This document shows positions 3,158 through 27,069 of a stretch of 42,419 nucleotides of DNA, one piece after another. The notes beneath the pieces were generated by a model. It was given only the letters and a program-made list of their open reading frames with translations. It did no database searches and had not been told where the DNA came from. Within the stretch, counting starts at the first letter, position 1. Each line of letters starts with the position of its first letter. A program made the translations under genes and the position numbers. Origin of the DNA: Clostridia bacterium (GTDB lineage Bacteria > Bacillota > Clostridia > Oscillospirales > Acutalibacteraceae); assembly GCA_017481575.1 (NCBI GenBank), contig JAFUPA010000010.1, forward strand, positions 1 to 42,419, in the 5' to 3' direction.

Positions 3158-3756
3158 TGGCACGAAACGTAGTACCGCTTGCCAACCTTATTGAGCAGTT
3201 TGAACGTCTGCCTGGTATAGGACACAAAAGTGCGCAGAAGCTTGCTTTTCACATCCTTAATATGACCGATGCAGAGGCAAAAAGATTTGCTGATACAATT
3301 ATGCTCGCTCACGAGAAAATTCACCGTTGCTCCGTTTGCTGTGACCTTACAGATTCGGATGTATGCAACATCTGCCTTGATGAAAAAAGAGACCGCTCAA
3401 CAATCTGCGTGGTCGAAAATTCCAAGGATGTTATTGCAATCGAACGCACACGTGAGTTCAACGGAATGTATCACGTTCTTCACGGCTCAATTTCACCGAT
3501 GAACGGAATTGGTCCTGACGAAATTACAATCAAGGAGCTTTTAAACAGGCTTAATGATGACAGCGTTCAGGAAATTATTATGGCAACTAACCCTACGGTT
3601 GAGGGTGAAGCAACCGCTATGTATATTTCAAGGCTTATTAAACCTTTAGGCATTAAGGTTTCACGCCTTGCTTACGGTGTTCCCGTCGGTGCAGACCTTG
3701 AATATGCCGATGAAATTACACTTACAAGAGCAATTGAAGGCAGACAGATTTTATAA
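3157..3756 (+). CDS. recR: Recombination mediator protein RecR
   Basis: Repair protein that works with RecO and RecF to load RecA on gapped single-stranded DNA. The 199-residue length is typical. Visible parts are a helix-hairpin-helix region (LPGIGHKSAQKLAF, residues 18-31), a four-cysteine zinc site (Cys 58, 61, 70, 73) and a TOPRIM domain beginning near residue 83 with the conserved E and the later VEGEATAMY segment. The start codon overlaps the ebfC stop. The gene ends at the edge of the origin region, 240 bases before dnaN. Confidence 0.97.
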   Translation: MARNVVPLANLIEQFERLPGIGHKSAQKLAFHILNMTDAEAKRFADTIMLAHEKIHRCSVCCDLTDSDVCNICLDEKRDRSTICVVENSKDVIAIERTREFNGMYHVLHGSISPMNGIGPDEITIKELLNRLNDDSVQEIIMATNPTVEGEATAMYISRLIKPLGIKVSRLAYGVPVGADLEYADEITLTRAIEGRQIL

Positions 3757-3996
3757 AGAAATTTCCACACTTTCTTTAACATTCTTTCCACAACCTTCCA
3801 CACTTTCAACAGTGACTTTTCTTTAACAATCTTTTCCACAAATTATAAACAATCTGATTGTTTAAAAAATAAAGCATTAAAACCTTGATAATTAAGGCTT
3901 ACGACAATTTTCCACACTTTAAACAGCCCCTACTACTACTACTTAAATATTTATATAATATATTTATTAACAAATTTCCTGAACGGAGGAATTACA
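3757..3996. other. oriC: Putative chromosomal replication origin (oriC) between recR and dnaN
   Basis: This 240-base gap has the layout of a Firmicutes origin. Five DnaA-box-like sites with core TCCACA lie on the plus strand: 3761-3769, 3784-3792, 3794-3802, 3832-3840 and 3908-3916. The last two are TTTTCCACA, one change from TTATCCACA. After the final box come a short spacer ending in GCCCC (3925-3930), four TAC repeats (3931-3942) that read as 3'-GAT-5' DnaA-trios on the complement, and an AT-only stretch (3943-3970) suited to unwinding. This box, GC, trio, AT order is known from the Bacillus dnaA-dnaN unwinding element. dnaA itself is absent here. Confidence 0.82.
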
Positions 3997-5118
3997 ATGA
4001 AATTCGTTTGCGAAACAGCATCACTTTCAACAGCTTGCCAGAACGTGCAAAGAGCAGTATCTGCAAAATCATCCATACCCGGAACAGAAGGTATACTTAT
4101 TAAAGCTTCAAACAGCGAGCTTAACCTTACCGGTTATGACCTTGAGATAGGTATTAACACAACTATCTATGCAAAAATTGAAGAAGCAGGCTCAATTGTA
4201 CTTAATGCAAAGGTGCTTTGCGAAATTCTTCGCCGCATTCCTAACCAAACAGTAACAATTGAATGTGACGAAAGAAACTTTGCAGTTATCCGCAGTGGTG
4301 ACATCAAATATGAAATAATGGGTATTTCCGCCGAGGATTACCCCGAATTGCCAACCGTTCAGGGCGGTTTCACAATTGATATCAACAGAAAAATGCTTTC
4401 TGAAATGGTTAAGCAGACAATCTTTGCTGTTGCAGTTACAGATTCAAAGGTTGTTTATACAGGTATTAAATTCGAAATTTCTGACGGTGAGCTGAAGCTT
4501 ATTGCTGTTGACGGCTTCAGAATGGCTATCAGAACAGAAAAAATTGATTATAACGGTGAGGATATAACTTTCATTGTTCCTGCAAAGACAATGTCAGAAA
4601 TTATCAAGCTTTCTGTTGAAGATGCAGAAAATGAAGAGGGAGTTGTTTCGCTCGGTCTCGGTAACCGCCACATTATTTTTGAAGTGAACGGTTACAGCAT
4701 TATTTCAAGACTTCTTGAGGGTGAGTTCCTTAATTACAAGTCAACTATCCCCGTTTCTGTTTCAACAAGTGTTGAAGTTGATACAAGAAGCCTTATTGAC
4801 AGTATTGAAAGAACTTCGCTTATTATTACAGACAGAACAAAGAGCCTTATCAACTGCGTTTTTGATACTGATTTCATCAGAATTTCAAGTATCGCCGCTC
4901 TTGGTACAGCTAATGATAAAGTTCCTGCAGACGTTGACGGCAACAGAGTAGAAATCGGCTTTAACAACCGTTATCTTCTTGATGCGCTTAAGGCTTGCAA
5001 CACCGACAGAGTTAAAATTCAGCTCAACGGTGCAATCTCCCCTATCCTCATCTTGCCGACAGAGGGAGAAAGCTTTATATTCCTTGTTCTTCCCGTGAGG
5101 TTGAAGAAAAATGATTGA
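3997..5118 (+). CDS. dnaN: DNA polymerase III subunit beta (sliding clamp)
   Basis: Ring-shaped processivity clamp for DNA polymerase III and docking site for many replication and repair proteins. The 373-residue product opens MKFVCETASLSTACQNVQRAV and closes with the family tail SPILILPTEGESFIFLVLPVRL. ATG at 3997 follows the ribosome site GGAGG at 3985-3989. It is the first gene after the putative origin and leads the dnaN-yaaA-recF-remB operon. It overlaps yaaA by eight bases. Confidence 0.98.
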   Translation: MKFVCETASLSTACQNVQRAVSAKSSIPGTEGILIKASNSELNLTGYDLEIGINTTIYAKIEEAGSIVLNAKVLCEILRRIPNQTVTIECDERNFAVIRSGDIKYEIMGISAEDYPELPTVQGGFTIDINRKMLSEMVKQTIFAVAVTDSKVVYTGIKFEISDGELKLIAVDGFRMAIRTEKIDYNGEDITFIVPAKTMSEIIKLSVEDAENEEGVVSLGLGNRHIIFEVNGYSIISRLLEGEFLNYKSTIPVSVSTSVEVDTRSLIDSIERTSLIITDRTKSLINCVFDTDFIRISSIAALGTANDKVPADVDGNRVEIGFNNRYLLDALKACNTDRVKIQLNGAISPILILPTEGESFIFLVLPVRLKKND

Positions 5119-5362
5119 TAAAAGAAAAATACGATTAAAAATAAAAGAAAAACCCGTTATTCAAAAAAGTATTCATACTGAATTTATTCGTCTTGATGCT
5201 TTTTTAAAGCTCTGTGATGCTGTTCAGTCAGGCGGTCACGCAAAGATTGTTATTCAGGACGGAGAAATTAAAGTGAATAACGAAATCTGCACCCAGAGAG
5301 GCAAAAAGCTCCACCCGGGTGACAAGGTTGAATTTGAAAATACGGTTTACGAGATAGTTTGA
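5111..5362 (+). CDS. yaaA: S4-domain RNA-binding protein YaaA
   Basis: Small protein with an S4 RNA-binding fold, conserved between dnaN and recF in Firmicutes. The 83-residue product carries the S4 pattern in its second half: FIRLDAFLKLCDAVQSGGHAK, then DGEIKVNNEICTQRGKKLHPGD. The start overlaps the end of dnaN and the stop is one base before the recF ATG, so all three are probably translated from one message. In Bacillus relatives it has been linked to ribosome assembly; that role is inferred here only from family and position. Confidence 0.93.
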   Translation: MIDKRKIRLKIKEKPVIQKSIHTEFIRLDAFLKLCDAVQSGGHAKIVIQDGEIKVNNEICTQRGKKLHPGDKVEFENTVYEIV

Positions 5363-5363
5363 T

Positions 5364-6458
5364 ATGAATATTGAAAATCATGTAATCAAAAATTTCCGAA
5401 ACATAGAGCATATTGAAATCGAACCCGTGAACGGAATCAATGTAATTTACGGCGAAAACGGTCACGGTAAGACTAATATTATTGAAAGTATTTGGCTCTT
5501 TACAGGTTGCAACAGCTTCAGGACAAGAAAAAACACTGAGCTTATAAAAAAAGACGAGTCTTTTTCGGAAATTAACATGGATTTCTTTTCTTATGACAGA
5601 CCTCAGACGGCTAAATTGATAATTAACAGTCAGAAAGAGGCCTATCTTAACGGTATCAAACAAATCTCGCCGAGAAAATTTTTGGGAGAATTTCAGGCGG
5701 TGGTTTTTTCACCGTCTGTTCTTTCTGTTATAAAGGACGGTCCGTCAGAAAAAAGAAAATTTCTCGACATCGCAATTTGCCTTATAAAGCCGAATTATGC
5801 AGTTTTGCTTTCAAAGTATAACAAGGCGGTCTTTCAGCGTAACGCCCTTTTAAAGCAAATTAGTCAAACCTCACGGGGTGAAGATCTGCTTTTCGCCTTT
5901 GATGAAGAAATTGCACGCTACGGCGGAAAAATTATTGATTACCGATTAAATTATATCGAGGATTTAAAAGAATTTTCTGCAGACATTTACAAAGAAATTT
6001 CTTCTGACAGAGAAAAGATGGAAATATCTTATCTTAACTCTTTAAAAGAAAAAGGAAATAATGCAGAAGAATGGTCTGAAATCCTTTATAACGAAACGGT
6101 CAAAAATCATCAGCGTGATATCTTCCGTCTTGCAACAAATGTCGGCCCGCACAAGGATGACCTTGAAATTATGCTCAACTCAATGGATGCAAGAAGCTAC
6201 GGCTCGCAGGGTCAGCAACGCTCCTGCGCTTTGGCACTTAAATTGAGTGAGGCTTCAATCCTTAAAAAGTATTCAGGTGAACAGCCGATTGCTTTGCTTG
6301 ATGATGTTATGAGTGAGCTTGACGGCAAAAGACAGAAATATCTTATAAAATATTTTGACGGCTGGCAGGTTTTTGTCACCTGCTGTGACAGGTCGCATTT
6401 AAGAAAAATTAAATCGGATAAAACCTTTAAAATTGCTGATGGAAAAGTAAAGAGGTAA
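5364..6458 (+). CDS. recF: DNA replication and repair protein RecF
   Basis: SMC-like ATPase that recognises gapped DNA and works with RecO and RecR. The 364-residue product has Walker A GENGHGKT at residues 30-37, a signature region (YGSQGQQRSCALALKL) in the C-terminal third and a Walker B ALLDDVMSELD directly after it. Length and order of motifs are typical. It begins one base after yaaA and ends four bases before remB. Confidence 0.97.
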   Translation: MNIENHVIKNFRNIEHIEIEPVNGINVIYGENGHGKTNIIESIWLFTGCNSFRTRKNTELIKKDESFSEINMDFFSYDRPQTAKLIINSQKEAYLNGIKQISPRKFLGEFQAVVFSPSVLSVIKDGPSEKRKFLDIAICLIKPNYAVLLSKYNKAVFQRNALLKQISQTSRGEDLLFAFDEEIARYGGKIIDYRLNYIEDLKEFSADIYKEISSDREKMEISYLNSLKEKGNNAEEWSEILYNETVKNHQRDIFRLATNVGPHKDDLEIMLNSMDARSYGSQGQQRSCALALKLSEASILKKYSGEQPIALLDDVMSELDGKRQKYLIKYFDGWQVFVTCCDRSHLRKIKSDKTFKIADGKVKR

Positions 6459-15598: not shown

Positions 15599-15627
15599 AT
15601 TATACCTTATCTTAATAAAGCAATGAA
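15599..15627 (-). promoter_or_regulatory. Possible promoter for the MinD-like gene and mnmE operon
   Basis: On the minus strand a perfect TATAAT (15599-15604) lies 17 bases after a weak TTCATT (15622-15627) inside the end of pbp2. The message would begin with the hairpin array before the MinD-like start codon. Confidence 0.4.
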
Positions 15628-17678
15628 GAATCTATGTTTTCGTTGTTTTCTTCAGTTTCCGTTTCTGCTTCGGAATCAACTTTATCTTCAAAATAGTAAT
15701 TATAAATGTCGCACGCAACGGGAGCACAGCCGCCACCCGAGGTAGCACCCTCAACTGCAACCGCAACTGCAAGCTCGGGGTCATCGTAAGGAGCAAAAGA
15801 AATGTTGAAACCGTTGGTGTAGGTCTTTTTAACTCCGTTAATTGTTTTATCAACCTGCGATGTACCTGTTTTGCAGGCAACCGCAATGTCAAGAAGACCA
15901 AAGTTGTAACGGCATGAGCCGTTTGTAACAACAAGTCTCATACCCTGGTGAACTGTCTGTATATTTTCTTCCGAAAAGCCTGTTTCAACAACAACCTTCG
16001 GCTTTTTTTCAAGAATGGTTGTTGTGTTGTCGGCTGAAAGGATTGATTTTACAAGATGAGCCTCGTAGCGTGTGCCGCCGTTTGCGATTGTCGCAACGTA
16101 ATTGCAAAGCTGAAGCGGTGTGAAGAGGTTACCTGCTTGTCCGATTGCTGACTGCAAAGAGAAGCCGGGCATCCAGGTCTGACCGATTGATGTGCGGTAG
16201 CTCGGGGAGTCAAGAACACCTGTGTTCTCGGCAATTTCAATGCCTGTCGGCTGACCGAGACCGAGCATTTCACGGTACATATTCATTTTATCAATGCCGA
16301 GCTCTTCACCGCCATAGTAGTAGAAAAATGTGTTGCACGAATCCTGCAAAGCGGTGCGAACATTCAGCGTTCTGTTTGCGTGGTTAATTTGGCAGACAAA
16401 CGTGTGTCCACGGTAAAAATAGTTATATGCGCAATATTTTGAGGTCGAAGCATCAACAAGTCCCTCTTCAAGGCAGGCAATTGCCGTTGAAACCTTGGCT
16501 GTTGAACCCGGTGCATAGGTGCTCAGAGTAGCACGGTTGTAAAGAGGTGAGTTTGTATTCTTTGCGAGAGAGTTGTAATCCTCATAATATGTCGAAAGGT
16601 CATAAGTCGGGTAAGATGCCATTGCAAGAATTTCGCCCGTTTTGCAGTTCATAACAACAACTGCACCGCCGCCCGAGTTTGCCGTGCCGACGGAATCGCA
16701 CTTTTCCTTGAGTGCATCCTGTGCAATTTTCTGCAGTCGTGCATCTATTGTAAGCACAATGTTGTCGCCGTTTTTAAGTCCTGTTATTTTCGTCTCCTGT
16801 GTGCCGTCGGTTGAGGTTGTAACGGTTTTCACACCGTTTGTACCCTTAAGATTTTCTTCAAAAACCTTTTCAATACCGCTTTTGCCGAGAATGTCGTCCA
16901 TAGCATAGCCCTTTGCCTTAAGGGTTGCATATTCCTCGGCATTTATAACGCCTGTAACACCCAGAATGTGCGGTGCAATCGAGCCGTCCGTGTATTCACG
17001 GTAGGTTACAATCTGCACATCGACACCCTTGTAAAAACGGCTGTTTTCTTTGATAACGGAAACAATCTCGTCGTCAACATCCTGTGCAAAGGTGTATGGG
17101 TTTGCCGTGTTAAAGGTGTTCATTTTCATATTACAAACGACAGATGCAATCTTAAGTGTATCCGCCTTTGAATAGCTTTCGAGTGAATAACGCTCAATAA
17201 TCTCCTGCATACAGTCGTCCGCTGTTGCGTACTTGTTGAGGTGGAGCATATCACGGGATTTGAGCTTTGTGATGTCGGACTCTCTGTCCTCGATAAACTG
17301 ATAATTTCCGCCTGCATCAAGCGTAATCGGCAGCTCGTTTATCCACGCCGCACCGTTATCCTCAAAAAGATTAACAAGAGAAAGGATGATTTCGTTACGC
17401 TTGTCCTGCTCGCTGAAGGAGGGGAAGGTGCTTGCGTTAAAAATAATCTCGTTACCCTGACGGTTGCCGACAAGAACGGTACCGTTACGGTCAAGAATCT
17501 GACCTCGGGTCGCCTTTACGGTTGTTGACGAGGTGGAGGCTGTGCTTGTTTTTGCATATTTTTCACCGTTTACTACCTGAATGTTAACAAGTCGGACACA
17601 AAAAACAAGAAAAAGACAAACGAAGACCGTGATTATGGCAATAAATCTGCCTTTTTTTTCTTCACGAGCCAATCTCAT
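15612..17678 (-). CDS. mrdA: Penicillin-binding protein 2 (elongation transpeptidase)
   Basis: Class B penicillin-binding protein that crosslinks peptidoglycan during side-wall growth with MreBCD. The 688-residue product has one N-terminal membrane helix (about residues 11-33), a dimerisation region with TRGQILDRNG (about 58-67), and a transpeptidase domain with STAK (catalytic Ser 392), SCN near 447 and KTGT near 597. Its place after mreBCD supports the elongation PBP2 over a sporulation-specific SpoVD. The C-terminal tail is acidic. rodA, a usual partner, is not in the window. Confidence 0.9.
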   Translation of the reverse strand: MRLAREEKKGRFIAIITVFVCLFLVFCVRLVNIQVVNGEKYAKTSTASTSSTTVKATRGQILDRNGTVLVGNRQGNEIIFNASTFPSFSEQDKRNEIILSLVNLFEDNGAAWINELPITLDAGGNYQFIEDRESDITKLKSRDMLHLNKYATADDCMQEIIERYSLESYSKADTLKIASVVCNMKMNTFNTANPYTFAQDVDDEIVSVIKENSRFYKGVDVQIVTYREYTDGSIAPHILGVTGVINAEEYATLKAKGYAMDDILGKSGIEKVFEENLKGTNGVKTVTTSTDGTQETKITGLKNGDNIVLTIDARLQKIAQDALKEKCDSVGTANSGGGAVVVMNCKTGEILAMASYPTYDLSTYYEDYNSLAKNTNSPLYNRATLSTYAPGSTAKVSTAIACLEEGLVDASTSKYCAYNYFYRGHTFVCQINHANRTLNVRTALQDSCNTFFYYYGGEELGIDKMNMYREMLGLGQPTGIEIAENTGVLDSPSYRTSIGQTWMPGFSLQSAIGQAGNLFTPLQLCNYVATIANGGTRYEAHLVKSILSADNTTTILEKKPKVVVETGFSEENIQTVHQGMRLVVTNGSCRYNFGLLDIAVACKTGTSQVDKTINGVKKTYTNGFNISFAPYDDPELAVAVAVEGATSGGGCAPVACDIYNYYFEDKVDSEAETETEENNENIDSSLLY

Positions 17679-17697
17679 TTGTCTTTACTCCTTTCGT

Positions 17698-18216
17698 TTA
17701 TTTAAACTGCTTTGAAACGGCACGCACAAGCAAATAATAAACGGGTGTGAGAACAACCGTGTAAAGTGCCGAAGTGAAATAATATCTGAAATATGTAAAA
17801 AGCGGCGAGGCGATTGCTTCAAAATCCGTGTATACAAGGAAAAGCAGAGCCGTGTAAATAAAAGCCGCTACCGATGTCATAATCGTTGCGCAAAGCAGGT
17901 TGTTTCGCATAAGGTAGGTTATAAGAGAGCCTGCAACAAAGCCGATTACCGTAAAAAACAAGGAGTTGAAAACTGCAGATTGCGAGCTGAACGCATCAAG
18001 CATAACTCCCGAAAAAAGTCCGAAAAATATTCCTGCAAATTCACGCTCAAACATTGCAATACAGATAGTAAGAGGTATCAGCAACATTGCGTGAACGTCA
18101 AACGGAGCAGGGAAGAGACCGCCCGTGTTCTGAAAAGCAAAGGTAAGCATTGCAAGTGCCGCAAGGATTGCACGTCGTATGAGTGTTTTTTTATCGAGTC
18201 TGCCGATGAAATCCAT
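17698..18216 (-). CDS. mreD: Rod shape-determining protein MreD
   Basis: Polytopic membrane subunit of the rod elongation machinery. The 172-residue product has about five hydrophobic segments (for example LAALAMLTFAF and LTICIAMF) and the family-like stretch FAGIFFGLFSGVMLDAF. It is recognised mainly from size, hydrophobicity and position between mreC and pbp2. Gaps on both sides are about 20 bases. Confidence 0.88.
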   Translation of the reverse strand: MDFIGRLDKKTLIRRAILAALAMLTFAFQNTGGLFPAPFDVHAMLLIPLTICIAMFEREFAGIFFGLFSGVMLDAFSSQSAVFNSLFFTVIGFVAGSLITYLMRNNLLCATIMTSVAAFIYTALLFLVYTDFEAIASPLFTYFRYYFTSALYTVVLTPVYYLLVRAVSKQFK

Positions 18217-18235
18217 ACCGTGCTTTCCTTTCCTT

Positions 18236-19093
18236 TTAATCTGTTATGGTAACTACTCCCTGACCGTCAAAGCTTTTGATGATGAAAACCTCTGAAAGCT
18301 CTGCAATGTCAACCGCAGAACGCACCGTAGCGTAGGAGGAGATGCCGTCCTTTGCATCTTCAAGCTCAACAACCGTGCCTACTATAAGGTCTTTAGGGTA
18401 AATTCCGCCGCTGCCCGACGTGCAGATAATTCCGTTGGGTGAAATTGCGGTTTCGGTTTTAAGACCCGGGATTTTGCAGTAAACTCTGTCCTTCGAGTTG
18501 CCTGTGCCGCCCGTGTAGCCGACCTCACCCGTATATGTTTCGTAAACACCGACATTGACGTTCGGGTTTGCAATTGTGCTCACTGTGCAGGTCGCAGGCG
18601 AAACAGATGTTATAACGCCGACAAGGTTTGTCCCGTAAATAACGGGGTCGTTGACTTCAATGTCGTCAATCGAGCCCTTGCTCAATGTAAAGGACTCATA
18701 CGGGTCCGTTGAATCTCTTGAAATTATGGTTGCGCTTTCAAAGATGAAATCGGGATTTTCTTCCTTAACACCGAGGAAATCCTCATAGGTTTCAAGCTTC
18801 TTTTTAGCCTCGTTGTAGCCGATAATCTCCTGCTGATACTGCTCAATCTGCATTTTAAGCTCGGCATTCTCGTCTGCAAGTGTAGCCGAGGACTTGAAAT
18901 TGTCGTTAAAGTTAGCAAACTTGTAGCTTAAATATGCGGAAACACGCTGAAGCGGATACAAAACCGTGCTTGTCGCTGAGGAAAGGGGAGTATTATTGCT
19001 GTGAGAGAAAGCTGCAATAACCGCACCGAGAATTATCGCCACGACAACGCAAACAAATGCTTTTAATGCTCTACTTCTGAAAAATCTGTTCAT
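18236..19093 (-). CDS. mreC: Rod shape-determining protein MreC
   Basis: Bitopic membrane protein that links MreB to the wall synthases outside the cell. The 285-residue product has a membrane helix at about residues 10-28, a coiled coil near residues 65-100 and the extracellular beta domain with VIYGTNLVGVITSVSPATCTV and a late GSGGIYPKDLIVGTV segment. ATG at 19093 follows GGAGGTGAAG. It is 46 bases after mreB. Confidence 0.93.
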   Translation of the reverse strand: MNRFFRSRALKAFVCVVVAIILGAVIAAFSHSNNTPLSSATSTVLYPLQRVSAYLSYKFANFNDNFKSSATLADENAELKMQIEQYQQEIIGYNEAKKKLETYEDFLGVKEENPDFIFESATIISRDSTDPYESFTLSKGSIDDIEVNDPVIYGTNLVGVITSVSPATCTVSTIANPNVNVGVYETYTGEVGYTGGTGNSKDRVYCKIPGLKTETAISPNGIICTSGSGGIYPKDLIVGTVVELEDAKDGISSYATVRSAVDIAELSEVFIIKSFDGQGVVTITD

Positions 19094-19139
19094 ACCGCTT
19101 CACCTCCGTTTTGCAGTTATATATTTTTGTTTAATTATA

Positions 19140-20126
19140 TTAATGGTGCTTTTCGAGGCAGATGCCCGTACCCTCAACCACGCAGTCGAGCGGATTGTCG
19201 GAAATTGTAACGGGGATTTTAACTTCCTTTTCGATAAGCTTGTCAAGACCACGCAGAAGTGCGCCGCCGCCCGTAAGAGTAATTCCACCGTCAATGATGT
19301 CGGCTGAAAGCTCGGGGGGAGTGTTCTCAAGAGTTGTGCGGATAGCGTCAAGCACCTGGCTGATGCTGTCCTTAAGAGCCTCACGGATTTCCTCTGCGGA
19401 AACCTCAACGTCCTTGGGAAGTCCGTCAACAAGGTTTCTGCCCTTGACGTTCATAGCGCCTTCGCCCTCGTAGGGGTAAGCGGAGCCAATCTGAATTTTA
19501 ATGTCCTCTGCGGTTCTTTCACCGATAAGAAGACTGTATTTCTTTCTTATGTAGTTGATGATTGCCTCGTCGTAGCTGTCGCCCGCAACCTTAACGGAGC
19601 GAGAAGTTACAATATCACCGAGAGCAACAACAGCAACCTCTGCCGTGCCGCCGCCGATGTCAACAATCATTGAGCCCTTTGCCGCTTCAACGGGCAGACC
19701 TGCACCGATAGCTGCCGCCATGGGCTGTTCAATAAGGCTGACGTATCTTGCACCTGCGCTCTTTGCGGCATCGTTAACCGCACGGCGCTCAACCTCGGTA
19801 ACACCCGACGGAACGCAGATCATAACTCTTGTTTTGCTGAAGGGTGAAGCGGTAACAGCCTTACGGATGAATTTGCGAAGCATCTCTGCCGTTGCGTCAA
19901 AGTCTGCAATAACACCGTTGCGCAAGGGACGTACTGCACCGATTGAGCCCGGTGTTCTGCCTATCATATCCTTTGCCTCCGAGCCGACCGCAACAACACG
20001 CACGGGGTTGTATCGCTGGTCAACCGCAACAACTGACGGCTCACGGATAATAATACCTTTACCCTTAACAAAAACGAGGGTGTTGGCTGTGCCCAAGTCT
20101 ATACCTATGTCCTGTGAAAACAACAT
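19140..20126 (-). CDS. mreB: Rod shape-determining actin homologue MreB
   Basis: Bacterial actin that forms membrane-bound filaments and directs side-wall growth. The 328-residue product has phosphate-1 GIDLGTANTLVFVKGKGI near the N-terminus, phosphate-2 DIGGGTAEVAVVALGDIV near residue 160 and the adenosine motif TGGGALLRGLDKLI near residue 285. The N-terminal MLFSQDIGID is typical. It lies 18 bases after the lipoprotein gene, so the two share a message. Confidence 0.97.
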   Translation of the reverse strand: MLFSQDIGIDLGTANTLVFVKGKGIIIREPSVVAVDQRYNPVRVVAVGSEAKDMIGRTPGSIGAVRPLRNGVIADFDATAEMLRKFIRKAVTASPFSKTRVMICVPSGVTEVERRAVNDAAKSAGARYVSLIEQPMAAAIGAGLPVEAAKGSMIVDIGGGTAEVAVVALGDIVTSRSVKVAGDSYDEAIINYIRKKYSLLIGERTAEDIKIQIGSAYPYEGEGAMNVKGRNLVDGLPKDVEVSAEEIREALKDSISQVLDAIRTTLENTPPELSADIIDGGITLTGGGALLRGLDKLIEKEVKIPVTISDNPLDCVVEGTGICLEKHH

Positions 20127-20144
20127 AACAAAAACTCCTAAAAA

Positions 20145-20891
20145 TTATTCTGCCGAAGTATCAATGTCTTCCTCGATTGCTTCCTCTGTTGAGGGTGCAG
20201 TAGGTCTTACACCGCCGAGGTCCTTGAGAGTGTATGCCTTTGCAATAAGCTCTTTGATTTCATCTTCCGTGAAGCAGTCATCACACGCATAAGCCTCAAT
20301 TTCAAAAGCGGCAAGACCTCTTTCAACAAGGTAGTAGTAGAATGTGCCGCCCTCGTTTAATGTACGGTAAGAGATAGCCTTTGCAGACAGACCGCAGATT
20401 TCTGTTTCGTATTCCTTAAGGTCGTCAAACTCTGTTCTTGCTTCAACAAGCCAGCGTACGGGACCTCTGTAGTTTTCATAAAGTGTCTCGTTAGCCGCCA
20501 TAACGTCAAAACGAACGTCAACCTGACACTGTGCCTTGTTCATATCAAGACACTCGCCATTGTGCTGAATTGAAAGCTTGTCGTTGGCGCTGAAGTTTAT
20601 CCACTTGCTCGGCACATCAAGCTTTATAAAGGTGTTTTCTATTTTATCGCCCTTTTTGTTTGTAACTCTGTCAGGGAAGATAAAGCTTTTGGTCTGGGTT
20701 TCACCGTCTTCATCAGTAACAACTTCGTAAACTCCGCCGTACTCATTCTGGACAAAGTTGCCCTTTTTGTCGGTAAGAAGAACGTGCTCTTGACCGTTCT
20801 CGTCAACAACGACATTCTTTTTACTGCACGCAGTAAAAGTGATTGAAAGGAGAATTACCAATACTGAAATTATAGCAATTGATTTTTTCAC
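20145..20891 (-). CDS. Putative lipoprotein upstream of mreB
   Basis: Not assigned to a known family. The 248-residue product starts MKKSIAIISVLVILLSITF and has the lipobox FTAC with Cys at residue 22, so it is probably anchored to the outer face of the membrane. The mature part is acidic, with a central segment containing CLDMNKAQC and CDDC, and ends in a Ser/Thr/Glu-rich tail. The start is GTG at 20891. It is the first gene of the mreBCD-pbp2 operon, with a good promoter upstream, which suggests a wall or cell-shape link by position only. Confidence 0.75.
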   Translation of the reverse strand: MKKSIAIISVLVILLSITFTACSKKNVVVDENGQEHVLLTDKKGNFVQNEYGGVYEVVTDEDGETQTKSFIFPDRVTNKKGDKIENTFIKLDVPSKWINFSANDKLSIQHNGECLDMNKAQCQVDVRFDVMAANETLYENYRGPVRWLVEARTEFDDLKEYETEICGLSAKAISYRTLNEGGTFYYYLVERGLAAFEIEAYACDDCFTEDEIKELIAKAYTLKDLGGVRPTAPSTEEAIEEDIDTSAE

Positions 20892-21024: not shown

Positions 21025-21071
21025 GTCTTCGTAGCTCAGATGGATAGAGCGTTCGCCTCCTAAGCGGGTGT
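21025..21071 (+). pseudogene. Truncated tRNA-Arg (anticodon CCU), 5' half only
   Basis: The stretch has the acceptor 5' strand GTCTTCG, a D arm with GCTC/GAGC, and an anticodon arm with loop CTCCTAA giving anticodon CCT. After the anticodon stem (GCGGG) the variable loop, T arm and acceptor 3' strand (expected CGAAGAC) are missing. Instead a hairpin GGTGTTT/AAACACC and unrelated sequence follow. It lies directly behind a strong promoter, so it may still be transcribed. Confidence 0.8.
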
Positions 21072-21129
21072 TTTAACAAACACCTTTGCAAAAAGGTAAA
21101 TGGTAATCTGTTTGAATTGTATAGTATAT

Positions 21130-21206
21130 GCGCTTGTACCTCAGCAGGATAGAGGGTCCGCCTCCTAAGCGGAACGCCCCCGGTTCGAATCCGGGCAAGC
21201 GCGCCA
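21130..21206 (+). tRNA. tRNA-Arg (anticodon CCU)
   Basis: Complete cloverleaf: acceptor GCGCTTG/CAAGCGC, D stem CCTC/GAGG, anticodon stem TCCGC/GCGGA with loop CTCCTAA (anticodon CCT), T stem CCCGG/CCGGG with TTCGAAT loop, and encoded GCCA end. It reads AGG arginine codons. It lies 59 bases after the truncated copy and probably shares its promoter. Confidence 0.97.
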
Positions 21207-21207
21207 A

Positions 21208-21250
21208 AAAGTGCCGAGAAATCAAGGTTTCTCGGCACTTTCACTTTTTA
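21208..21250 (+). terminator. Terminator after tRNA-Arg
   Basis: A 14-bp stem AAAGTGCCGAGAAA/TTTCTCGGCACTTT with a six-base loop starts two bases after the tRNA CCA end and is followed by a T-rich run broken by CAC. Confidence 0.85.
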
Positions 21251-21323: not shown

Positions 21324-21390
21324 GATTAGCTGGAAATTAGCAGAAAATCGGCGTTTTGCTAATCGCCTGCTAATCGGATTTTTAGCAAAA
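21324..21390. repeat. Left-boundary GCTAAT repeats of the AT-rich island
   Basis: Two direct copies of GCTAATCG lie at 21358 and 21369, an 11-base period, with an inverted copy GATTAGC at 21324-21330 and related TTAGC pieces between. A matching pair with the same 11-base period lies at 24161 and 24172. The ten bases TTTGCTAATC are identical at 21355 and 24169. Such paired repeats resemble recombinase arm sites; no integrase gene is present. Confidence 0.5.
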
Positions 21391-21440: not shown

Positions 21441-22322
21441 TTATACTAAAACATCTTCACCTGATAGTAACTTTTCTACATCAGTTATATCACGAATCAA
21501 AACGTCTTGAGATTCCAAAAAGTTCCTACTATCTTTTGTTAATTTTGCATTATCAATGATTAAAACGGGGATATATCCATTTTCAACAGCATTTCTACTA
21601 TTGTTCACAAACATTTGGATATCATCTCGTCTAATAAATCTGCCATTTGCCAACTTTATTTCTATAACATACTTCTTTTTACATTTCACAATCAGCATAT
21701 CAGCCGTGACAAATTCTTGTGGCAAGTTTGGATAAGTATAAACTTTATAGCCTTGATTTTCAAAAGCATATTTAAATAATGTTTCTCTTGTAATACCAGT
21801 ATCCAATGAACACAACGCTTGGTACAATTTGTTGGGGCTAATTTTAATTAATGCAGTACATTCGTCATTGTAATAATCCAATCCTATCAACAGGTCCCCA
21901 CAAATATTAAATCTACCATGTGCGAGACAATTACGCACATGTCTCAACAAGCACATACTTTTGGTTTCATTATCGGATGATTTACCCAAAATCAGCTCTT
22001 GGCAATTTATACAAAGAGTTGGTTCATTATCTTTTATGTAACGACTTAACTGAGAAGGATTTTTTTCACATACAACTTTATTGACATCAAAATTTATTAA
22101 CTTTAATAAATATTCAAAGCAAAATTGATCATATAATTTCTTGGAAATAATTTCATAACTAAAACCTGTATTTTCCGATTGATATGATGTCTTCACTCCC
22201 GGAACATACCATAGCAACATTTTTAAAGACTTTTCTAAATCGCTTGTTAACTCTATCGGCTTTTTTGTGTGCTTTAAACTATATGTTATTATATCGGGAT
22301 TTTTACAACATTTATTTTTCAT
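21441..22322 (-). CDS. HEPN-like and PD-(D/E)XK nuclease fusion protein
   Basis: Not a recognised named protein; motifs suggest a two-part nuclease. With the start at 22322 (293 residues), residues 125-137 hold an RNCLAHG motif (Arg 130, His 135), the R-x4-H signature of HEPN ribonucleases. Residues 180-260 resemble an Mrr-like PD-(D/E)XK core: Asp 208, then Glu 221 and Lys 223 as EIK, followed by a Gln in DDIQMF. There are no membrane helices. A longer form from ATG 22409 is possible but would overlap the previous gene and lacks a close ribosome site. It lies 64 bases after the YD-repeat gene in the same AT-rich island. Defence or abortive infection is a plausible inference, not shown. Confidence 0.7.
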   Translation of the reverse strand: MKNKCCKNPDIITYSLKHTKKPIELTSDLEKSLKMLLWYVPGVKTSYQSENTGFSYEIISKKLYDQFCFEYLLKLINFDVNKVVCEKNPSQLSRYIKDNEPTLCINCQELILGKSSDNETKSMCLLRHVRNCLAHGRFNICGDLLIGLDYYNDECTALIKISPNKLYQALCSLDTGITRETLFKYAFENQGYKVYTYPNLPQEFVTADMLIVKCKKKYVIEIKLANGRFIRRDDIQMFVNNSRNAVENGYIPVLIIDNAKLTKDSRNFLESQDVLIRDITDVEKLLSGEDVLV

Positions 22323-22386
22323 TTCACCTTTACCTATCTTTCTATTAACACAAACACGATTATGATATTTAATTGTTTTGGTTCGA

Positions 22387-24027
22387 TTATTCTCTATATA
22401 CCGGAACATATGTATATTTTATGTCTTCTTCACTGGTATTTTGTTCTTCAATCAAATTACCATTGTTATCATATATGTAATTTTTTATATTATGCTCACC
22501 ATTTGTCTCCCTAACCAATTTGTCTCTTTCATATTCATAAGTTATTATGTTTTCAACCTTTTCGTTTACTGTTTTTGTTGCTTTAATTATTTGATTGCTA
22601 GAATTATATTCGTAATTATAAACCCAGTCTAATTTATAATATCCAAGTGTTTTATTAAGAGAATTTATGAAATCATCATAATCTATACTTTTTAATAAAG
22701 ATATAACAAAACCCCTATCGTCCGCAGGAGAATATGATGATTTTTTTGTGCAATTTCCGTTAATATCATATGCATACGTGTTTATGTAATTAAAACTACT
22801 TTGTATATTCATACTATACTCTGCTACCAATTGATTTTTCTCATTATAGAGATATTTATATTCATAAGAATCTTCTTCTGTTGAACTTATTGATGATGTT
22901 ATTTGCTTGATTTTATTGTTGTTCTCATCATAAAAATATTCTCTTCTCCATTCATGTCCATCATCATTACTAATTTCTCGTTCTAATATTAGATTTCCTT
23001 TCGAGTCATATTCATATGTAATCATATTCGATCCTGATCTTTCTGCAATTAGACGATCAAAAGAATCATATTCATATGTATATATGGTAGAGTAATTGTG
23101 ATATTCGATTACATTCCCTTTTTCATTATAAAACTTTTTATAATTATCTCCCTCTTCTGAAAATAAAACAAAATCAAAACTTTTCAAATATGTTTCGCTG
23201 TCTTTATAGTTTTTCAATTTGGCAAAAAGATCGTATGCGGCTTGATATTGTTGGCTTTCAAGCAACTCCTTCGCTTTTGAATATTCTATACTTGGCTGAA
23301 TTATACAAGGATTAATCCAAAAGCAAAAAAGAGAAATAAGAACGCCTATTGAACCTATTATCGAAATTGTTGCAACTATTTTTTTAGAATTAATTTTGAT
23401 CTTTTTTCTCAGTTTAACCACATTTGTTGAAAACACTTTCCTTACAAATTGTTCGCTTTGGGTAAAAATTGCATTTTCATTTAAAACTTTGGTTTGTTCT
23501 TCATAATTATCGTTAATTTGATTATTTTTAGCGGCACTTCTGTCTCCTTTCAGAACGCAACACATATCTTGATTGTTCTTTATGAAAAGAAATTTATATG
23601 TATCTGCTGCTGTTGAAATAGATATACTGGCAAATGTGTCAGACACACTTATCGCATTTATTTGATTTAACGAAATTACGATTTTTTTATTATATTTCGC
23701 TGTTCCCTCAACATATTCATTATAAACTGTTAATTCACACGACGAACCGCTATTTAAAATAGTAATAAGAATTATTGAAATAATTAAAGATACGATAGCT
23801 AGATAAAAAGTAACAATCTCATAAATCTCAGTTTGTGCAAAGCTATGCGTTTCAAATTGAAATAAAGATGGCATAGTGGTTACTGTATCCCAGTTGCTTT
23901 CGGATATGTACATACCAAAGGTAATAACAAACATAAAAATTGATATTACTACAAAAAGTCCAATTATGCCCTTTAGCACTTTAATTTTGTCATTATCTCT
24001 CAAACTTTTATATACAAACTTGTCCAT
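22387..24027 (-). CDS. Membrane protein with PH-like domain and extracellular YD (RHS) repeats
   Basis: Function unknown. The 546-residue product has two N-terminal membrane helices (about 18-40 and 70-91), a cytosolic segment resembling a bacterial PH domain (about 98-155) and a third helix (about 216-238). A TPR-like motif follows (AKELLESQQYQAAYDLF, then KDSETYL). From residue 300 to the end run about eight YD repeats of the YEYDSKGNLI type found in RHS proteins, predicted outside the cell. No toxin tip or RHS core-cleavage motif is seen. The ribosome site GAGGTG is five bases before the ATG. AT-rich codon use differs from nearby genes. It probably shares a message with the nuclease-like gene downstream. 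Confidence 0.78.
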   Translation of the reverse strand: MDKFVYKSLRDNDKIKVLKGIIGLFVVISIFMFVITFGMYISESNWDTVTTMPSLFQFETHSFAQTEIYEIVTFYLAIVSLIISIILITILNSGSSCELTVYNEYVEGTAKYNKKIVISLNQINAISVSDTFASISISTAADTYKFLFIKNNQDMCCVLKGDRSAAKNNQINDNYEEQTKVLNENAIFTQSEQFVRKVFSTNVVKLRKKIKINSKKIVATISIIGSIGVLISLFCFWINPCIIQPSIEYSKAKELLESQQYQAAYDLFAKLKNYKDSETYLKSFDFVLFSEEGDNYKKFYNEKGNVIEYHNYSTIYTYEYDSFDRLIAERSGSNMITYEYDSKGNLILEREISNDDGHEWRREYFYDENNNKIKQITSSISSTEEDSYEYKYLYNEKNQLVAEYSMNIQSSFNYINTYAYDINGNCTKKSSYSPADDRGFVISLLKSIDYDDFINSLNKTLGYYKLDWVYNYEYNSSNQIIKATKTVNEKVENIITYEYERDKLVRETNGEHNIKNYIYDNNGNLIEEQNTSEEDIKYTYVPVYRE

Positions 24028-24159: not shown

Positions 24160-24178
24160 TGCTAATTGTTTGCTAATC
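24160..24178. repeat. Right-boundary GCTAAT repeats of the AT-rich island
   Basis: Two direct copies of TGCTAAT eleven bases apart. The second sits in TTTGCTAATC, identical to the left-boundary copy at 21355-21364. Confidence 0.5.
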
Positions 24179-24327: not shown

Positions 24328-24918
24328 TTATTCATTTTCAATCTTTATAATCATATCACACCGCTGTCCGACGTGCATTTTTGAAAAATACTCTCTCTCG
24401 AGCGGTATCCATTTGCTGAAAAATCTTTCGGCTTCTTCGGCAGAGTTGCGTTTTAAAATCCTCTCTCTCTGCAATTCGGGTGAGATGTCAAGAAACACCG
24501 CAAGGTCGTAGTATTCTGCAAGGGTCGGGTGCATTGAATAAGCGCCCTCAATCACGGTCAGCTTTTCGGGTTTTATCTCGGTGAAAGGGGAGATGGTAAA
24601 CGTTGCACAGTCAAATCGACGGTAGTTTATGGTTTCGTTTCTTTTAAGAGGACGAAGCACCTCTTCAAGGAAACGCTCTCTGTCAAGGTTGCCGCCGACC
24701 TCGGCATATCGCTCGGGCGTGCGCTGTTCGGGTCGCAGGAAAAAGTCGTCCGTATGCAAAACCGTGCAACCGTAAATTTCGTTGAGAATTCCGCTCAATG
24801 TGGTTTTGCCGCTTGCACTTCCGCCGTCAATTGCAAGGACTACAGAGCCGTTTTTCAGCATTTCGTCCAGTTTTTCAAAAAGAGGCAGAAACGGAATATA
24901 TTTTTCGTTATTTTCCAT
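24328..24918 (-). CDS. Uridine kinase-like P-loop kinase
   Basis: P-loop kinase of the uridine kinase/phosphoribulokinase superfamily, likely to phosphorylate a nucleoside or small vitamin-like alcohol. The 196-residue product has Walker A DGGSASGKTT near residue 31, HTDDFFLRP near residue 55 and a Walker B-like LTVIEGAYSMHP near residue 120; ERILKRN could be the lid. It starts 12 bases after the ECF S-component gene, suggesting that it traps the substrate brought in by that transporter. The true substrate cannot be told from the sequence. Confidence 0.82.
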   Translation of the reverse strand: MENNEKYIPFLPLFEKLDEMLKNGSVVLAIDGGSASGKTTLSGILNEIYGCTVLHTDDFFLRPEQRTPERYAEVGGNLDRERFLEEVLRPLKRNETINYRRFDCATFTISPFTEIKPEKLTVIEGAYSMHPTLAEYYDLAVFLDISPELQRERILKRNSAEEAERFFSKWIPLEREYFSKMHVGQRCDMIIKIENE

Positions 24919-24930
24919 AGTAACTCCAAC

Positions 24931-25467
24931 TCAAAGCTTTTTGAATATTTTTTTGTTATCAAGCACCGCAACAAGAATTGGTATGAGTATTATCTGAATA
25001 ACAATTCCGGGAATTGCATTGGTAAACGCACCTGCAATAAATGCGGCAAAGGTAAAGCCACCGCCGTTAAGTCCCATACAAATAAACATTGCAATACCCC
25101 AAATCACTCTGCCAACAAGCATTGCAACCAGCAGGGAGCAATAAATGTACGGCTTTTTCGGGGGCAGTATTCTGTGCATCAAGCCTGACGTGAAACCATA
25201 TGCGGCAAGCTCAAACGCCATACAAACAGCCATCGGGAAAAGCACCGGCATTCCGAGTGTCACGGAGCGAAGCAGGGGCGCAACAAAGCCCACAACAAGC
25301 CCCCACGGCCATCCGCAGATGAAGCCGCAAAGTAAAACGGGAATATGTAACGGGCACAGCATTGAGCCGACCTCGGGTATCTGACCCGTCAGAAAGGGCA
25401 TAACAAAAGCGAGCGCCAGAAAAAATGCAGAAAGTGCTGTTTTGGATAAGTTATTGTGTTTTTTCAT
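24931..25467 (-). CDS. ECF transporter substrate-binding (S) component
   Basis: Membrane protein of the energy-coupling factor type that captures a vitamin or related nutrient and shares a common ATPase module encoded elsewhere. The 178-residue product has about six hydrophobic segments, with the early ALSAFFLALAFVMPF stretch and GGGFTFAAFIAGAF later. The start ATG at 25467 is preferred because GAGG lies just upstream; a longer frame to 25503 has no such site. It is coupled to a P-loop kinase gene, as vitamin S components often are. No ECF ATPase genes are in the window. Confidence 0.82.
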   Translation of the reverse strand: MKKHNNLSKTALSAFFLALAFVMPFLTGQIPEVGSMLCPLHIPVLLCGFICGWPWGLVVGFVAPLLRSVTLGMPVLFPMAVCMAFELAAYGFTSGLMHRILPPKKPYIYCSLLVAMLVGRVIWGIAMFICMGLNGGGFTFAAFIAGAFTNAIPGIVIQIILIPILVAVLDNKKIFKKL

Positions 25468-25544
25468 AAAAACCTCTTTTAAAAAGCATGGCTGTATTGT
25501 CACCTATATTATCATAAAAGAAATAACTTCGCAAGGAATAACAC

Positions 25545-25572
25545 TTGAAAAAATGAAAAATGGGTGTATATT
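25545..25572 (+). promoter_or_regulatory. Promoter for the ceramidase-like gene
   Basis: TTGAAA (25545-25550), 16-base spacer, TATATT (25567-25572). The start would fall near 25580, which argues for the GTG start at 25594 over an in-frame upstream codon at 25564. Confidence 0.55.
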
Positions 25573-25593
25573 GAAAATATGGGAGTGATAATT

Positions 25594-27069
25594 GTGAATT
25601 TTAAAGACAGATTAACAAAAGGTGCGGTGACAGCACTCATAAATACTCTTATTTCAACAATGCCGAAAAAATATTTTACCACGCAGGCAAATGCAGACAA
25701 ATTTATGCTCACGGGTGATGACACATTTTCCACAGCCCCGGGGGAAAAGTGGACCTGCGGCTTCGGCAAGGCGGCATACACTCCCGACGATTACAAAGAA
25801 AAAACCTATTACATCGCAGGCTACGACTCAAACAATCCTGTCAAGGGAGTGCTTGACGATTTGTACGCAAGGGCGATTTACCTTGACGACAACCGAGGCG
25901 GCGGAGGTGTAGTTTTCTGTGTGCTTGACTGTGTCGGTATGAGCCGCCGTGACATAAATGACATAAGAAAACTTGCGCTTGAAAGCGGCAGGCTCGGCAA
26001 AGTTAAATCCGTAAACATTTCTGCCACTCACACTCACGCAGGCATTGACACGCAAGGGCTGTGGGGCGAAAAGCTTTACAAAACAGGCAGAGACGAAGCG
26101 TTTATGTCAAACCTTAAAAAGAAAGCGGCTCAGGCAATTGCTGAGGCTTACGAAAGCAGAAAAGACGGCAGACTTTATATGGGCTACACTCCTGCAGAGG
26201 ATATGCAGGCAGATGTAAGAACTCCCGAGACGTACGACAAAAATCTGACGAGATTCCGTTTTTCGCCCGACGACAATTCAGGCGACATCTACCTTGTGAA
26301 TTTTGCTTCACACGCTGAGCTGCTCGGCACAACGTCGCTTGTCAGCGCAGACTTCCCTGCGTACCTTATAAAGGAAATTGAAGAAAAAGTACCGAATTCA
26401 AACGCCCTTTTCTTCAACGGTGCAGTCGGCGGTATGATTTCCGCAAAGGAAATCAAAAAGGTTTACAGAGATTCAATCGACTGCGAAGCGTATATGAAAG
26501 GCTTTGGTAAACAGCTTGGCGAGCTTGCACTTTCAATTGAAAAGGAGACAGAACTAAAGCCTGTTCTCAATATAAAAACAAAAGGAATAAAAATTGCAAT
26601 TGATAACACGGTTCTCATTCTTGCAAGGTATATCAACGTTCTCAACAACGACGTCGGCAGAACCGAAAAAAGAAACAAGGTCTGCATTTATTCCGAGGTG
26701 GCTTATGCCGAAATGGGCGACAAGGACGTTGCAATGTTCCTTGTTCCGGGCGAGCTTTTCCCCGAGCTTTACAACGGCGAATTCCTCAACGAAAAGGACA
26801 GCGCAAATCACAGAAAAGCAAGCTACAAAAAGGTGCTTGCCGAGATGACGGATTGCAAGCATAAGTTCGTTGTCGGACTTTGTAACGATGAGCTTGGTTA
26901 CATTCTTGCTGAAAATGACTTTTTGCTCAACGAAGCATTACCTTATATCAACAAGGCGACGGACGATATGGACAGAGGCCACTATGAGGAAACAAACTCA
27001 ACCGGCCCCGAAACAGGCAAAACAATCCTTGACGAAATGGAGAGTTTAATCAATTCTGCATCGGCTTGA
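25594..27069 (+). CDS. Neutral/alkaline ceramidase-like protein
   Basis: Resembles the N-terminal domain of neutral ceramidases, zinc amidases that cleave ceramide. Family hallmarks are GFGKAAYTPDDY followed by YIAGYD near residue 55, and the metal-site segment SATHTHAGIDTQGLWG near residue 145. Residues GAVGGM and the late VPGELFPE segment also fit. There is no signal peptide, so it may act inside the cell, and the natural substrate in such a bacterium is unclear. GTG at 25594 is chosen from GGGAG eight bases upstream and the promoter position. It leads a three-gene plus-strand group. Confidence 0.75.
   Translation: MNFKDRLTKGAVTALINTLISTMPKKYFTTQANADKFMLTGDDTFSTAPGEKWTCGFGKAAYTPDDYKEKTYYIAGYDSNNPVKGVLDDLYARAIYLDDNRGGGGVVFCVLDCVGMSRRDINDIRKLALESGRLGKVKSVNISATHTHAGIDTQGLWGEKLYKTGRDEAFMSNLKKKAAQAIAEAYESRKDGRLYMGYTPAEDMQADVRTPETYDKNLTRFRFSPDDNSGDIYLVNFASHAELLGTTSLVSADFPAYLIKEIEEKVPNSNALFFNGAVGGMISAKEIKKVYRDSIDCEAYMKGFGKQLGELALSIEKETELKPVLNIKTKGIKIAIDNTVLILARYINVLNNDVGRTEKRNKVCIYSEVAYAEMGDKDVAMFLVPGELFPELYNGEFLNEKDSANHRKASYKKVLAEMTDCKHKFVVGLCNDELGYILAENDFLLNEALPYINKATDDMDRGHYEETNSTGPETGKTILDEMESLINSASA

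Follow-up and report, generated by a model that had tools for sequence, protein, structure and literature searches.

A gene encoding a HEPN-Mrr protein in an AT-rich island at a tRNA-Arg(CCU) site of a Clostridia bacterium

Organization of the locus

Two adjacent genes on the minus strand occupy the central part of the window, the whole 42,419-nucleotide stretch of Clostridia bacterium DNA that was analyzed. The upstream gene (22387..24027) encodes a 546-residue membrane protein with YD repeats, as judged from the ORF, the Pfam matches and the hydrophobic segments. The downstream gene (21441..22322) encodes a 293-residue protein, in which family profiles, conservation and a structural model point to a HEPN domain joined to a Mrr-type PD-(D/E)XK domain. 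The start at 22322 was chosen by its fit to the relatives; the ORF could open at 22409. Both ORFs and the 64 bp gap between them are found where the original prediction had placed them, and the genes are AT-rich, as had been proposed, with a G+C content of 0.30 and 0.28 versus 0.44-0.45 in the flanks.

The left flank (15612-20891, minus strand) presumably contains genes for PBP2-, MreD-, MreC-, MreB- and lipoprotein-like proteins. To the right of the island, three more genes (24328-27069) precede a gene at 27126; in the sister genome G700, a counterpart with 90% identity comes directly after the tRNA. The right flank must therefore have been altered more than once. Three terminator-like sites were found in the region, compared to 0.9 expected from shuffled sequences, and a terminator-like hairpin follows the tRNA described below (21208..21241, plus strand; hairpin scan).

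The island had also been thought to be flanked by matching repeats. The window contains 18 copies of the motif GCTAA(T/C), and at least two copies fall within 100 bp only at 21325..21374 and at 24161..24177. These short clusters do bracket the YD and HEPN-Mrr genes. The left cluster has four copies, arranged as two pairs with a spacing of 11 bp in each, which are candidate integrase arm sites; the right cluster is a single pair, also 11 bp apart, and may be what is left of the opposite end of the element. When the island was shuffled 500 times, four copies within 100 bp never occurred (0/500), and two copies occurred in 115 of the 500 shuffles, so that the right pair carries little weight by itself.

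The tRNA-Arg(CCU) site

The tRNA locus predicted to adjoin the island is a complete tRNA-Arg with the anticodon CCT (21130..21206, plus strand; ARAGORN), the sequence of which is unlike that of the host gene. It is preceded by the 5' half of the host tRNA-Arg(CCU) (21025..21066, plus strand), which ends just past the anticodon loop and represents the attL side. The 42 bases of this half are identical to the intact tRNA-Arg of the sister genomes G689 and G700, after which the sequences diverge. The 63 bases between the cut half and the complete tRNA (21067..21129) form an apparently element-derived linker with a hairpin-like stretch, and similar linkers are visible by eye in G688, G698 and G690.

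The lipoprotein-like gene was found in 17 of the 18 genomes of the genus, and ARAGORN detects a tRNA-Arg beside it at 8 of these 17 loci. The site is occupied by an intact tRNA-Arg(CCU) in G689 and G700 and by a nearly identical one in G693. A cut host tRNA followed by a different full tRNA-Arg is present in G688 and G698, where 39 and 37 bases of the host gene are kept, respectively, and the replacement tRNAs of these two genomes differ from that of the window. In two genomes, G696 and G694, the full tRNA-Arg is again a different one, but no cut half was seen ahead of it, which counts against the involvement of an element. The sequence comparison shows a family of elements that insert at the anticodon loop of tRNA-Arg(CCU), where we infer the crossover point to lie, destroy the host gene and supply a complete tRNA-Arg in its place.

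The following was also observed at this site. Inspection by eye shows a cut half in G690, behind which another tRNA-Arg begins at the contig end, and two cut-looking tRNA halves in G701; both contigs end among further tRNA-Arg halves, which gives the impression of stacked insertions. The same gene thus appears to have been cut repeatedly by elements bringing different complete tRNA-Arg genes (21025-21206 in the window; loci L082, L083, L085 and L070).

No attR core follows the right repeats, and no 3' half of the host tRNA was found with up to 3 mismatches (<=3) in the window or in the rest of its own genome, which is 72.9% complete, and no integrase gene lies between the repeats of the window, where the two cargo genes are the only genes. 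Since the displaced half is missing, the island is classified as a remnant only.

The tyrosine integrase (found in G688), the tRNA target and the cut near the anticodon loop resemble the Islander tDNA islands (PMC4383910), in which a fragment makes the split tRNA whole again. In contrast to the islands described there, the cut half in the window is followed by a complete and different tRNA-Arg.

The element of G688 and the Hachiman genes

The displaced 3' half of the tRNA is found in G688 on another contig, about 120-150 bp past three GCTAA(T/C) copies, two of which are 11 bp apart, as in the window. This half lies downstream of a tyrosine integrase gene (Phage_integrase, 3.1e-15; Arm-DNA-bind_4, 1e-5). 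The two ends of the G688 site reside on separate contigs; a host gene beyond the 3' half is 70% identical over 214 aa to a gene lying to the right of the tRNA of G696, and hence the two contigs are interpreted as the two ends of one element. The stretches concerned are 13539-18222 of L091 (G688:C51) and 12827-14281 of L090 (G688:C16). The element is of the conjugative type.

Three AT-rich genes (G+C 0.26-0.35) lie between the replacement tRNA and ParB in the G688 element. The first encodes a 270-aa protein of no assigned function; the second and the third from the tRNA end encode HamA (1.2e-86) and HamB (1020 bits), respectively, and constitute a Hachiman system. G698 retains a tRNA, the repeats and an ORF that is similar at its start to the ParB of G688 (61% over 31 aa). 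The left ends of both G688 and G698 contain GCTAA(T/C) clusters of five copies each. In the G688 element, Hachiman (HamAB) occupies the slot next to the tRNA end in which the window has its two genes; only this slot is shared, and the proteins themselves are unrelated. The mobile and possibly defensive setting suggested by the original prediction is supported. The HEPN-Mrr gene has apparently been carried into the genome of the window on a mobile element.

The HEPN-Mrr protein

The downstream protein had been predicted to combine an R-x4-H HEPN motif (Arg130, His135) with a nuclease core made of Asp208, Glu221 and Lys223. This numbering is exact for the 293-residue start, and the codons are located on the minus strand at 21933-21935 (R130), 21918-21920 (H135), 21699-21701 (D208), 21660-21662 (E221) and 21654-21656 (K223). 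When searched alone, the protein shows no convincing Pfam match (NERD only, E about 0.07), no NCBIfam match and no relative in the PDB (phmmer). Matches of PDB profiles to immunity-related GTPases (E 0.016 and weaker) involve an N-terminal stretch only and were dismissed as chance similarity.

Both domains are recognized in the relatives. The Pfam profile of the HEPN family pEK499_p136 is matched at E<=0.1 by 33 of the 38 aligned family members (best 3.2e-5), the individual scores shown being below the Pfam cut-off of 26.6 bits. Mrr_cat is matched at the same threshold by 23 of the 38 (best 6.6e-9), and the score of L025, 27.3 bits, exceeds the 21-bit cut-off. The window protein is in neither group. 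Residues W38, Y39, P41, R127, H128, R130, N131, A134, H135, G136, F138 and D208 are invariant in all 38 sequences, and residue 221 is glutamate in 37 of them. Position 223 is more variable (K in 28, R in 6, L in 2, H in 1 and I in 1), and because 10 of the 38 members lack the lysine, part of the family may have an inactive nuclease half. In a set of 19 sequences, six of which come from more divergent members, the residues R130, N131, A134, H135, G136 and D208 are still invariant.

An AlphaFold model built from the 38-sequence alignment has a pLDDT of 84.4 and a pTM of 0.78. Its N-terminal half is mostly helical, with R130 within the helix 121-134 and H135 just after it. The C-terminal half is an alpha-beta structure composed of helix 179-189, strands 193-195, 209-213 and 216-222, helix 232-247, strand 251-256, helix 263-271 and strand 275-278, in which D208 directly precedes strand 209-213 and E221 is inside strand 216-222. 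The assignment of the HEPN and PD-(D/E)XK folds, which agrees with the original prediction, is supported by the profiles, the motif and the modeled topology. Taken together, the profiles, the conservation and the model show a family in which a predicted HEPN domain with the motif R-N-x-x-A-H is joined to a predicted Mrr-type nuclease with the core D...E-x-K. HEPN domains are RNases that act as dimers, and the substrate of Mrr-type domains is DNA. One domain of the protein is likely to cut RNA and the other DNA.

Distribution and evolution of the family

The HEPN-Mrr protein of the window has no relative in the other 294 of the 295 genomes sampled from its order. A first relative (30% identity) was found in the phylum sample, in G320, and full-length matches are rare in the rest of the phylum, occurring in two of 398 genomes (G000 and G320). 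A search of genome contigs with a two-row alignment, based on a few short peptide patterns and thus liable to miss relatives, yielded 39 loci, one of which (L053) is the G320 locus again; 35 of the 39 are titled Peptoniphilus, Anaerococcus, Aedoeadaptatus or Urinicoccus. The 38-row alignment omits L002, which is the same gene as L053, L034, where the gene is in two ORFs, and L040, which is at a contig edge. The broken gene of L034 (4875-5861) belongs to Peptoniphilus grossensis ph5.

A profile search of 394 genomes of the order returned the window protein and two partial matches on HEPN-only ORFs. Short proteins with a HEPN-like RN-x-x-AHG motif and without the Mrr half are encoded in L098 (1249-1815), L099 (1348-1971) and L116 (5668-6237), of which the last is a viral contig and the others belong to further genomes of the order. 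The one plasmid, phage or IMG/VR match obtained with the window nuclease and the relatives tried is a HEPN stretch of 39 residues in this viral contig (L116), the IMG/VR search also being one that relies on few peptide patterns, and a plasmid or phage origin of the gene was rejected because no such match turned up beyond it.

The relatives are mostly resident chromosomal genes of the Peptoniphilaceae. At E<=1e-10 the gene is present in 67 of the 130 genomes of this family, to which G320 belongs, and in 60 of the 108 better genomes. Four genomes have a second copy, which is divergent, and in two further genomes the sole copy is divergent. The gene occupies lineage-specific, stable places, and is flanked by fixed neighbors in Anaerococcus and the P. 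harei group; in one clade it is situated beside what we take to be rplM-rpsI. The dN/dS values of 0.04-0.12 in 8 close pairs indicate that the family is under purifying selection. In the tree, from which L058 was omitted due to its short start, the window copy falls outside the resident members and close to the long branch of L115, a position that long branches make unsure. The L115 gene is two genes away from a T4SS coupling protein (PF02534, 6.7e-59) and is thus probably part of a conjugative element.

Such a distribution might be that of a housekeeping enzyme of RNA processing or RNA decay in the Peptoniphilaceae, in which the Mrr half would bind nucleic acid and of which the window copy would be an accidental passenger. 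The usual single chromosomal copy in a lineage-stable place, the presence of the gene in all 31 genomes of the genus g450, the purifying selection and the variability of K223 next to an invariant HEPN motif are consistent with this explanation. It is at odds with the 63 of 130 Peptoniphilaceae genomes that give no match at E<=1e-10, with the rarity of full-length matches in the remainder of the phylum, with the copy beside the conjugation genes of L115 and with the location of the window copy in an element remnant. A housekeeping role is considered unlikely, if less so than the two-gene system and the toxin-antitoxin pair discussed below.

The YD-repeat membrane protein

The three membrane helices attributed to the upstream protein correspond to the hydrophobic segments 17-35, 71-89 and 217-235, and about eight YD-type repeats can be discerned with a loose pattern, in agreement with an RHS_repeat score of 43.8 bits versus the Pfam cut-off of 22. 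The chain is laid out as two transmembrane segments with a soluble N-terminal module, a third transmembrane segment, a TPR-like stretch and the YD repeats. The soluble part, which had been labeled PH-like, has no credible Pfam match. A reading as an Rhs or polymorphic toxin was rejected, as no toxin domain was matched and the YD repeats number about eight. Searches of viral contigs and of plasmids gave no match to the protein.

Segments of the N-terminal 187 residues resemble proteins of the same genus with two transmembrane segments, which presumably end in a SHOCT-like tail. The remainder, with the TPR-like stretch and the YD repeats, is similar to proteins of membrane or lipoprotein-like type found elsewhere in the order, in which a TPR-like stretch and YD repeats follow a transmembrane or lipoprotein-like start. 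Because its two parts match separate local families, the protein looks like a composite that was assembled locally.

The original prediction regarded the two genes as one contact-response or defense system, in which the YD protein would sense the surface and release the HEPN-Mrr nuclease. The genes are on the same strand, 64 bp apart, equally low in G+C and enclosed by the same two repeat clusters, and no terminator-like site was found between them, all of which would suit such a system. Nevertheless, a tblastn search with the YD protein gave no match (0) in 45 HEPN-Mrr loci (489 kb, with flanks of 1.5-6 kb on each side), 39 of which come from the genome contigs and six of which are more divergent. 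Conversely, tblastn with two nuclease proteins and a search with the family HMM detected nothing in 22 stretches (98 kb) around relatives of parts of the YD protein, which represent about 17 separate places, as some of the stretches overlap. The check for recurrence of the gene pair thus never found the two together in the searched loci. A conserved sensor-nuclease pair is unsupported by these searches, and the matches of the two parts of the YD protein to separate local families speak against it as well, so that a two-gene system appears highly improbable.

HEPN toxins are often paired with an adjacent nucleotidyltransferase antitoxin (HEPN-MNT), but a toxin-antitoxin pair in which the upstream gene neutralizes a HEPN toxin is the least credible explanation and can be set aside almost entirely, since this gene encodes a protein with three transmembrane segments that matches RHS/YD profiles only and is not a nucleotidyltransferase, and since no neighboring gene is common to all loci of the HEPN-Mrr family, which therefore has no constant antitoxin.

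Association with defense genes

Defense genes are found near the HEPN-Mrr gene in some loci but not in most of them. In four Anaerococcus loci (L035, L045, L050 and L060), Shango-like genes are located directly upstream of the HEPN-Mrr gene and on the same strand, the gap being 49 bp in L035 and L045 and 3 bp in L060. SngA (3.1e-22), SngB (1.1e-139) and SngC (5.8e-164) are all matched in L045; L035, L050 and L060 have matches to SngB and SngC, and their first gene belongs to the same protein cluster as that of L045. As the four loci form one clade in the tree, the associations may represent one event. A Shango variant with the HEPN-Mrr gene as its fourth component might exist in these loci. 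In L110, a divergent HEPN-Mrr paralog is separated by 406 bp from a gene for a GmrSD-type enzyme on the same strand; this enzyme has a DUF4268 tail (3657-5873, minus strand).

A scan of 142 neighbors from 29 of the 40 family loci, which leaves out ORFs at contig edges and ORFs of more than 1200 aa and to which SngB of L045 was added by hand, produced strong matches to SngB (4), SngC (3), mad3 (2) and a type I methyltransferase (one), as well as cross-hits of the same proteins, for example to BrxD and BrxHI; these counts stand without a background rate for random genes. At the majority of the resident loci, the neighbors are not defense genes. The Hachiman slot, the conjugation genes of L115, the GmrSD-type enzyme of L110 and the four Shango loci nonetheless suggest a link to defense. 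PADLOC contains no match to either protein of the window at E<=10, and its matches to the HEPN-Mrr relatives are weak (best 1.2e-4). The family is uncatalogued.

A possible function of the HEPN-Mrr gene

The family can be compared to several known systems. In the open-licence literature, the pEK499_p136 family is covered by PMC3710099 alone (Anantharaman et al. 2013), and no HEPN work on Peptoniphilus was found there. This paper places pEK499_p136 genes near R-M, Pgl and macro/ART genes, reports HEPN-REase fusions, such as that of a DUF4145 HEPN domain with a REase, and proposes that the HEPN RNase is a reversible suicide arm linked to restriction. The present family shares with pEK499_p136 the RN-x-x-A-H motif and the profile similarity, but has its HEPN half fused to a Mrr-type nuclease and is mostly a stable resident gene. 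Like the HEPN-restriction endonuclease fusions of that paper, it unites an RNase-type and a DNase-type domain in one polypeptide, yet it belongs to another HEPN family than the DUF4145 fusions, has no helicase or methylase partner and stands alone in most loci. The C-terminal D...E-x-K core is that of the Mrr_cat, or type IV restriction, nucleases (PF04471), from which the family differs in its variable lysine and in having no further DNA-reader domain in Pfam scans of its members.

The explanation that we favor, and consider rather probable, is that the two AT-rich genes are the cargo of a decayed integrative element, and that the HEPN-Mrr protein is a standalone, self-restrained immune nuclease. 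As HEPN domains act as dimers, the protein would probably dimerize through its HEPN half. It would hold itself inactive without the help of an antitoxin. Upon infection or entry of foreign DNA, the Mrr half might engage the incoming molecule and thereby release the RNase activity of the HEPN half. The released activity could then limit both the invader and the infected cell. The same restriction-suicide logic would thus be contained in one small protein, with no helicase, methylase or antitoxin. The YD membrane protein would be a separate surface protein in the same slot, perhaps encoded on the same transcript, and not a required partner.

A broader proposal may be put forward tentatively, and we would not expect it to hold in every part. 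The HEPN-Mrr proteins could be a single-gene, antitoxin-free immune family composed of a Mrr DNase and a HEPN RNase, which holds itself inactive, is a near-permanent gene in the chromosomes of Anaerococcus and related Peptoniphilaceae and was captured by conjugative elements that, by replacing the tRNA-Arg(CCU) of the host, become difficult to lose.

If this is true, a compact RNase/DNase immune gene that functions without an antitoxin would be added to a family of anaerobes, in proteins for which PADLOC offers at best weak matches. The tRNA-Arg(CCU) gene would be a hot spot where elements of one lineage swap their cargo, including Hachiman. The complete replacement tRNA suggests that the host becomes tied to the element, which would explain why the decayed copies keep the tRNA.
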